64,000 nucleotides of DNA from Microcaldota archaeon (GTDB lineage Archaea > Micrarchaeota > Micrarchaeia > Norongarragalinales > UBA8480). A model generated the notes under the pieces. It ran no database searches, was not told the DNA's origin, and saw only the letters and a list, made by a program, of their open reading frames with translations. Below are positions 11,325-35,881 of this stretch, one piece after another. Location of the stretch: positions 1-64,000 of the forward strand of contig JAHFHC010000003.1 in the NCBI GenBank assembly GCA_023247085.1. Reading direction: 5' to 3'. The first letter of the stretch is position 1. Each line of letters starts with the position of its first letter. The translations under genes were made by a program, and so were the position numbers.

Positions 11325-11549
11325 CGGGCTCGGTGGGATTTTCAAGCAAAAACCGTTCTTTTTACAAAAAACAAAAGAAAAAAAGACGCTGCGTGTTCTT
11401 TTTTAGAAATAAAATGTTTGTTGTCAAAGAAAGGTGTTGTCTTTGAACCCACGACCCTTCGGTTAAGAGCCGAATGCTCTAGCCATTCCAGGAATTTTGC
11501 CGCTACTATTATTATAGTTATGGCATAATTCAACCTGAGCTACGAGCCC
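11325..11549 (-). tRNA. tRNA-Lys (CTT) with introns in the D loop and the T loop
   Basis: Acceptor GGGCTCG (11549-11543) pairs with CGAGCCC (11332-11326), with discriminator G. The D stem is GCTC/GAGC. The anticodon stem TTCGG/CCGAA carries loop CTCTTAA (anticodon CTT), the variable loop is GGGTC, and the T stem is GTGGG/CCCAC. The gene is 225 nt. It folds canonically (75 nt) only if about 47 nt (11531-11485, or shifted by one) leave the D loop and about 103 nt (11442-11340) leave the T loop between 59 and 60. The D-loop intron has its own stem (GAATT/AATTC, TGCC/GGCA). At the T-loop sites TTCAA pairs with TTGAA, as expected of a bulge-helix-bulge. CCA is not encoded. Confidence 0.93.
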
Positions 11550-12394: not shown

Positions 12395-12620
12395 AGCGGG
12401 GTAACAAACTCGTTTCTCTTTAATTAGATATTAGTTTGACCCAAGGGTAGCCAGGAGTGCCCGCTGGTCCGACCAACGGCTAATTCATACAAATAGCAGC
12501 TGGTTAGGGCGAAGCTCATAACCCGGAGACCGGTGGTTCAAAAACCGCTTTTCTTTTAGGAAAAGAAAAGTGTGTGGGAAAAGAAAAACTTCTTCTTTTT
12601 CGAAAATCCACCCCCCGCTA
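12395..12620 (+). tRNA. Initiator tRNA-Met (CAT) with three introns
   Basis: The exons assemble into a canonical archaeal initiator. Acceptor AGCGGGG/CCCCGCT has discriminator A. The D arm GGGTAGCCAGGAGTGCCC is characteristic of archaeal initiators. The anticodon stem CTGG+G/CCCGG carries loop CTCATAA, the variable loop is AGACC, and the T arm GGTGG TTCAA+AT CCACC completes it. The introns are about 12403-12443 (41 nt, at 8/9), 12468-12513 (46 nt, inside the anticodon stem at 30/31) and 12542-12605 (64 nt, T loop 59/60). Each can form an internal stem: CAAACT/AGTTTG, ACCA/TGGT with GCTA/TAGC, and CTTTTC/GAAAAG. Removing all three leaves exactly 75 nt. No CCA is encoded. Junctions are ambiguous by one or two bases. 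Confidence 0.93.
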
Positions 12621-25132: not shown

Positions 25133-25360
25133 ATGGTGGGTATCGATAATGATAGGTTTTCGTTGTTCGACATGGATAATATCCTTCGAACAGCCGGTGC
25201 AGAGCGAATAGATGAGCGCGCTAGCAAGAAATTACGCGAATTACTAGAGGATTCAGCTTCAGATATAACTCTAAAAGCAAAGATACTTTCAAGGCATGCT
25301 GGACGCAACAACGTTACGCCTGAAGACATTCGGTTAGCCGCACAACAAATCAGGACATAG
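25133..25360 (+). CDS. Archaeal histone (first of two)
   Basis: This 75-residue histone-fold protein has MDNILRTAGAERIDERAS as helix 1 and loop, then LRELLEDSASDITLKAKIL as the long helix. The closing RHAGRNNVTPEDIRLAAQQI contains the conserved RxTxxxxD-type end. It wraps DNA as a dimer or longer polymer. The ATG at 25133 follows GGGGGGAAAA; an upstream in-frame ATG at 25073 would add an unlikely Cys-rich leader. The N-terminus (VGIDNDRFSLFD) is unusually acidic compared with HMf-type histones and with the second histone at 40777. Confidence 0.92.
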   Translation: MVGIDNDRFSLFDMDNILRTAGAERIDERASKKLRELLEDSASDITLKAKILSRHAGRNNVTPEDIRLAAQQIRT

Positions 25361-25365
25361 GCATT

Positions 25366-25629
25366 ATGAAAATAGAGAAAAAAGTTTGGCCTCAGTATTT
25401 CAATTTGATATTGAGCGGTGCAAAGAAGCTTGATATTAGGGTGGCTGATTTTGAAGCGAATATTGGCGATGTGCTGATATTACGCGAGTGGGATCCGGAG
25501 ACAAAGCAGTATACTGGCCGAAGTTTAGAAAAGAAAATCACCTACGTAATACGCACAAAAAACCTAGATAAAATGTACAGGCAAGCGGATATTGAAAAGT
25601 ATGGATTTGTTGTAATGCAGTTTGAGTGA
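25366..25629 (+). CDS. ASCH/DUF3850-like PUA-fold protein
   Basis: This 87-residue protein contains IEKKVWPQYFNLILSGAKKL and DIRVADFEANIGDVLILREW, followed by a Tyr-rich turn and YVIRTK. These are the features of the ASCH superfamily (PUA-like barrel, DUF3850 branch), often tied to RNA or modified-nucleotide recognition. It starts 5 nt after the histone gene, so the two are probably co-transcribed. The substrate is unknown. Confidence 0.75.
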   Translation: MKIEKKVWPQYFNLILSGAKKLDIRVADFEANIGDVLILREWDPETKQYTGRSLEKKITYVIRTKNLDKMYRQADIEKYGFVVMQFE

Positions 25630-35740: not shown

Positions 35741-35855
35741 GATAGCGGCCATAGGAGAGTGGAAATACCCAGTCCCATTTCGAACCTGGAAGTCAAGCAC
35801 TCTAACGGCACTCCCAGTACTGTTGTGATCAACGGGAACAGAAGCTGCTGCTATC
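35741..35855 (+). rRNA. rrf: 5S ribosomal RNA
   Basis: The sequence shows the conserved 5S core: GCGGCCATAG near the 5' end, CCCATTTCGAACCTGGAAGT in loop C and helix III, AAGCACTCTAACGGC, and CCCAGTACTG in helix V. The ends GATAGC and GCTATC pair as helix I. It is about 115 nt long. It is a stand-alone gene with its own promoter and no 16S or 23S gene within the window. Confidence 0.95.
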
Positions 35856-35881
35856 ACTCTTTACTATAAAACTTCTAGTGG

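Follow-up and report, generated by a model that had tools for sequence, protein, structure and literature searches.

The window, the whole 64,000-nucleotide stretch of DNA that was analysed, is part of contig C5 of a micrarchaeal genome assembly of 892,562 bases in 36 contigs, approximately 92% complete. Its features are listed in Table 1 and include an initiator tRNA gene interrupted by three introns, at the position and with the intron lengths proposed in an earlier note that was made from the sequence alone. That note had claimed that the loss of 41, 46 and 64 nt would leave a 75-nt tRNA with all stems paired, and folding of the joined exons (AGCGGGGTAGGGTAGCCAGGAGTGCCCGCTGGGCTCATAACCCGGAGACCGGTGGTTCAAATCCACCCCCCGCTA) bears this out, with a full cloverleaf at -34.5 kcal/mol. 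Its claim that the exons fit an archaeal initiator also holds: ARAGORN calls the spliced 75-mer tRNA-Met(cat), it has the CAU anticodon, the A1-U72 pair and the three G-C pairs 29-31/39-41 of archaeal initiators, and it shares 69-73 of its 75 nt with intronless relatives (best, 73/75). Unspliced, the gene escapes both ARAGORN on the raw window and Rfam with a threshold as lax as E<=1. Neither the 23-nt nor the 29-nt exon matches anywhere else on either strand of the window, with 6 and 8 mismatches allowed, respectively. Given that these long exons are unique in the window and that the spliced sequence matches intronless relatives, we reject an origin by chance, which the earlier note had already thought unlikely. 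Two of the three proposed intron sites, 30/31 and 59/60, stand as they were; the first, placed at 8/9, can be written at 8/9 or 9/10 because one A fits either side, and the bulge-helix-bulge structure favours 9/10. A second intact initiator, named beforehand as the result that would count against the proposal, was searched for genome-wide, and none was found in the ~92% complete assembly, in which the motif CTCATAACCCNNAG occurs once. Hence, the locus is probably a functional initiator tRNA gene of a micrarchaeon, and probably its single copy.

Table 1 Features of the window, with coordinates in window positions
Feature	Position	Strand	Description	Basis
tRNA-Lys gene	11325-11549	minus	anticodon CTT (by eye), two introns	
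T-loop intron of tRNA-Lys	~11339-11441			
D-loop intron of tRNA-Lys	~11485-11534			
Initiator tRNA gene	12395-12620	plus	anticodon CAT, three introns	sequence; orthologues in relatives
Exon 1	12395-12403	plus	tRNA positions 1-9	
Intron 1	12404-12444	plus	41 nt, 9/10 (or 8/9); helix GGGU/ACCC, then CAAACU/AGUUUG	sequence; same-site intron in 6/6 family relatives
Exon 2	12445-12467	plus	tRNA positions 10-30	
Intron 2	12468-12513	plus	46 nt, 30/31; CGCU/GGCG, bulges GG^U and AA^G	pairing kept in five genomes
Exon 3	12514-12542	plus	tRNA positions 31-59, includes CAT anticodon	
Intron 3	12543-12606	plus	64 nt, 59/60; outer helix is the T-stem; UUCA/CGAA, one A.C mismatch	sequence comparison; absent in congener G001
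Y	12548-12557	plus	pyrimidine tract (CTTTTCTTTT)	
R1	12561-12570	plus	purine tract (AAAAGAAAAG), reverse complement of Y	
R2	12578-12587	plus	purine tract (GAAAAGAAAA), exact mirror image of R1	
Exon 4	12607-12620	plus	tRNA positions 60-73	
5S rRNA gene	35741-35856	plus	78.8 bits	Rfam RF00001

All three introns can be drawn with the bulge-helix-bulge signal of archaeal splicing, that is, a helix of ~4 bp between opposed bulges of ~3 nt, for introns 2 and 3 by comparison between genomes and for intron 1 from its sequence, in which the GGGU/ACCC reading leaves a 2-nt 5' bulge. At 30/31, the central helix and both 3-nt bulges are retained in five genomes. The adjoining intron helix changes in sequence, yet 6, 7, 8, 8 and 7 of its 8 positions are paired in the five genomes, against a mean of 3.4 of 8 when the strands are mixed between genomes. 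At 59/60, the central helix and the T-loop change together (TTCA/TGAA, TTCG/CGAA and TCCA/TGGA). In the window, the initiator TTCA faces CGAA, the version used by elongator tRNAs of the genome, matching TTCG T-loops; because this 3' end fits the elongator loop and mismatches that of the initiator, intron 3 was probably derived from an elongator tRNA.

Relatives, other tRNA genes and splicing enzymes

The same exons recur in relatives with 0, 1, 2 or 3 introns, in which the intron sequence varies and the bulge-helix-bulge pairing is conserved. We take these loci as orthologues because neighbouring genes recur in several of them (by eye). Within the family, the 9/10 intron is present in 6/6 relatives, the 30/31 intron in 3/6 and the 59/60 intron in 1/6. 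Of the two congeners, G001 has introns at 9/10 and 30/31 and none at 59/60, and G002 has all three, the third with a different sequence. Elsewhere in the order most initiator copies are intronless, and other members have an intron only at 59/60, only at 30/31, in the variable region (L079) or in the D-arm (L088). Other records that share the 23-nt D-arm exon exactly are nearly all titled Candidatus Micrarchaeota. At the level of sequence comparison, the relatives are independent proof of the intron assignment.

The interrupted initiator is not isolated, as much of the tRNA set of the genome is predicted to be interrupted as well. Rfam RF00005 has 24 matches in the genome, of which 11 score above the cut-off and 7 of those 11 are uninterrupted. 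Assigned by eye, the introns of other tRNAs lie in the D-loop, on the anticodon side, in the variable arm and in the T-loop, and a tRNA-Gln on contig C3 has three. The T-loop intron of the tRNA-Lys in the window ends TGAAAA^T, matching the TTCA loop of its own gene. Farther along the same contig (L166, C5:70822), a tRNA-Trp (by eye) has two introns, on the anticodon side and in the T-loop; the anticodon-side intron may contain a box C/D RNA, by analogy with other archaea.

The earlier note had guessed at a broad-specificity endonuclease of the kind known from ARMAN-type DPANN archaea and had suggested a search of the genome, which turned up the epsilon2 type. PF01974 matches two open reading frames of 193 and 197 aa separated by a run of N, an assembly gap that splits the endonuclease gene. 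The enzyme of a congener is intact (387 aa), aligns over nearly its whole length with the ARMAN-2 epsilon2 enzyme (PDB 4fz2; E = 6e-128) and keeps the Tyr-Lys of the ARMAN-specific loop (GTYKAKKHG); it thus has the three-unit chain of ~390 aa and the loop that mark the epsilon2 type. The ARMAN-specific loop has been reported to be necessary for cleavage and broad specificity (PMC12397907). The genome also encodes the ligase RtcB (E 2e-172).

A mirror element in intron 3 and other tRNA introns

Many tRNA introns of the genome share a core in which a pyrimidine tract (Y) is followed, across a short loop, by its purine complement (R1) and then, beyond a short centre, by a second purine tract (R2). 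Intron 3 has an exact version of this core, a pyrimidine-purine-purine mirror of 10 triads whose stems measure 10 and whose loops measure 3 and 7. This is the layout of a potential intrastrand triplex (PIT; Y-loop-R-loop-R with matched stems longer than 7 nt and no loop above 10 nt), and the element would be able to form a triplex. It is the sole exact case in the window, and there are 0 in 100 shuffles of the window. Across the genome the element pattern gives 40 matches (39 places) compared with 6 for a reversed control, and in five relatives the corresponding numbers are 63/0, 47/0, 46/1, 34/1 and 22/0. Approximately 32 of the 39 places are within tRNA introns (assigned by eye), one is in 16S rRNA and the remainder are elsewhere. 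The 16S copy (Rfam RF01959; L185 ~1501-1540, equal to C28:1571-1610, minus strand) presumably marks an rRNA intron.

The pattern by which many of the elements were collected requires a G in each tract and not a mirror register, and among 106 elements with an asymmetric R1, R2 is the better mirror in 86, a tie in 17 and the better direct repeat in 3 (52, 10 and 3 over 65 distinct R1/R2 classes). For tracts with a single G, counted class-wide, the A-run on the centre side is equal in 68/72 under the mirror reading (r = 0.97) and in 12/72 under the direct reading. An alternative Watson-Crick hairpin between Y and R2 would need the direct repeat and was rejected on these counts, and a second pyrimidine partner for R2, found in 2/127 only, was rejected as well. 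MAFFT aligned the intron family with its hairpin arms out of register, and a covariance model was therefore abandoned. In G001, two longer intergenic relatives of the CATGCC-type element (L249 and L250) have two extra hairpins within the centre.

Several copies look as if they have moved. Over 55 nt, the third initiator intron of G002 is identical to an intron that interrupts another tRNA of the genome studied here, and near-identical introns in different tRNAs are what is expected of tRNA intron transposition. Another mirror element (L087 1290-1400, contig C26) is located 3' of the splicing endonuclease gene and is flanked by a 26-bp duplication (TGCACCCAC[C/T]CTATCTCATAATATTC, in two copies); in G002 the site is uninterrupted and present once, which makes one clean occupied/empty pair. 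The position beside the endonuclease gene may be chance. Hence, intron 3 seems to carry a repeated, apparently mobile motif that is dispersed mostly in the tRNA introns of the genome. Going further, the elements may belong to a mobile intrastrand-triplex family of ~60 bp in Micrarchaeota that spreads chiefly into tRNA genes and survives through excision by the epsilon2 endonuclease, an archaeal counterpart of introners; we propose this tentatively, at somewhat short of even odds.

The elements might instead not be mobile at all, with slippage and gene conversion among tRNA genes as the only means by which they arise and are copied. Tandem duplications beside some copies would suit such an origin, with mirror elements between duplicated 5' parts of tRNA-Tyr and of tRNA-Thr, and in bacteria, triplex motifs have been linked to local instability with no mobility genes close by (PMC4666352). 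Movement is favoured by near-identical copies that turn up both in different tRNAs and between genes, by the copy in 16S rRNA and by the empty site in a congener, and we regard an origin by slippage and conversion as possible, if doubtful. At the tRNA-Tyr locus (L182; C27 ~25300-25450), the 5' part of the gene and upstream DNA, together ~74 bp, are duplicated around the element, and the second copy is a complete tRNA-Tyr gene.

A separate question is whether the triple helix served by the mirror symmetry forms in RNA, either the precursor or the intron once excised, and not in DNA. By eye, ~27 of the 32 copies in tRNA introns read Y-R1-R2 on the tRNA strand, and the centre is often an 8-nt mini-hairpin, the geometry expected of a strand that returns along R1. 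An all-RNA third strand is disfavoured in purine-motif triplexes, which counts against an RNA helix, as do the copies that have the opposite orientation or are not in a known RNA gene. The bacterial motifs that share this build have been studied as DNA (PMC4666352), and on balance we consider a role in RNA unlikely.

Proposed pathway and known systems

We propose that a single precursor transcript of ~226 nt spans the initiator gene and that, at each of the three sites, a bulge-helix-bulge is formed by exon and intron strands together. The epsilon2 (ARMAN-type) endonuclease would cut both bulges and RtcB would join the exons, the two genes being assigned by homology. Mirror elements of the potential-intrastrand-triplex kind, such as that of intron 3, would be copied between tRNA genes and persist where the broad endonuclease can excise them, and this combination would lead to rapid gain, swap and loss of tRNA introns in the lineage. 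Taken as a whole, a spliced and functional initiator, processed by epsilon2 and RtcB and carrying one of the copied mirror elements of tRNA introns, is the best explanation of the sequence data, with a probability of approximately 0.92. That the locus is instead a decayed pseudogene with insertions, the intact initiator lying in the unassembled part of a genome that is ~92% assembled, is highly improbable, given that the exons are conserved and without defect, that the interrupted gene lies where relatives have their single intronless gene, that both congeners show just one copy, likewise interrupted, and that compensating changes maintain the intron helices.

On the preferred reading of a spliced initiator, each protein of the cell would start with a tRNA that needs three splicings, which would show how far a broad endonuclease permits the interruption of essential genes. 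The mirror element offers a recognisable repeated core of tRNA introns, so that intron gain can be studied through occupied and empty sites in close relatives. If the elements are indeed a mobile family, they would connect triplex-forming repeats with the gain of introns, including introns of the essential initiator tRNA.

Archaeal tRNAs with multiple introns, tRNA intron transposition, disrupted initiators and PIT motifs are each already known; our search of the open-licence literature yielded neither an initiator with three introns nor PIT motifs within tRNA introns. In Thermoproteales, likewise, a tRNA can have as many as three bulge-helix-bulge introns, located at non-canonical sites (Sugahara 2008, Fujishima 2010; PMC4033280, PMC4090602), and similar introns are common to their different tRNAs (reviewed in PMC4033280, PMC4090602), but the present case is from another phylum with another endonuclease type, and a mirror-repeat core is not mentioned in those two reviews. 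ARMAN-1 and ARMAN-2 share the phylum name, the epsilon2 endonuclease and non-canonical tRNA introns, with multiple-intron tRNAs listed (PMC4033280, PMC12397907), although a three-intron initiator was not found described for them in the open-licence literature. Disrupted initiators are known from Thermofilum pendens, in which the gene is permuted at 59/60, the same site as here, and has a 37/38 intron, and from Nanoarchaeum equitans, in which it is split at 37/38 (PMC3218864), whereas the gene described here is linear with three introns. Introners of eukaryotes are likewise short and repeated and give rise to introns in many genes, but they are spliceosomal introns (PMC9860276), and the analogy is one of behaviour only.

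The closest match to the element itself is the bacterial PIT/TM motifs, which have the Y-loop-R-loop-R layout on one strand (Hoyne 2000, 2002; Holder 2015, PMC4666352), with stems >=8, short loops and many copies per genome. A G/C-rich version forms a triplex in vitro, found no support in vivo and has been linked to local genome instability (PMC4666352). The bacterial motifs are mostly intergenic, and the words tRNA and intron are absent from the text of PMC4666352, whereas the archaeal elements are A/T-rich and mostly within tRNA introns; these unexplained bacterial motifs are thereby placed where copies persist within known transcripts. Viral contigs gave 12 pattern matches, several with the layout of the bacterial triplex motifs, and ARAGORN found no tRNA in the ten viral contigs scanned. 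Similar A/T-rich copies are present in viral contigs, and there are dozens in plasmids of the Burkholderia group. A comparable A/T-rich Y-R-R element is present at least 40 times in the unannotated DNA of Paraburkholderia megaplasmids (NZ_CP012748.1 and others).
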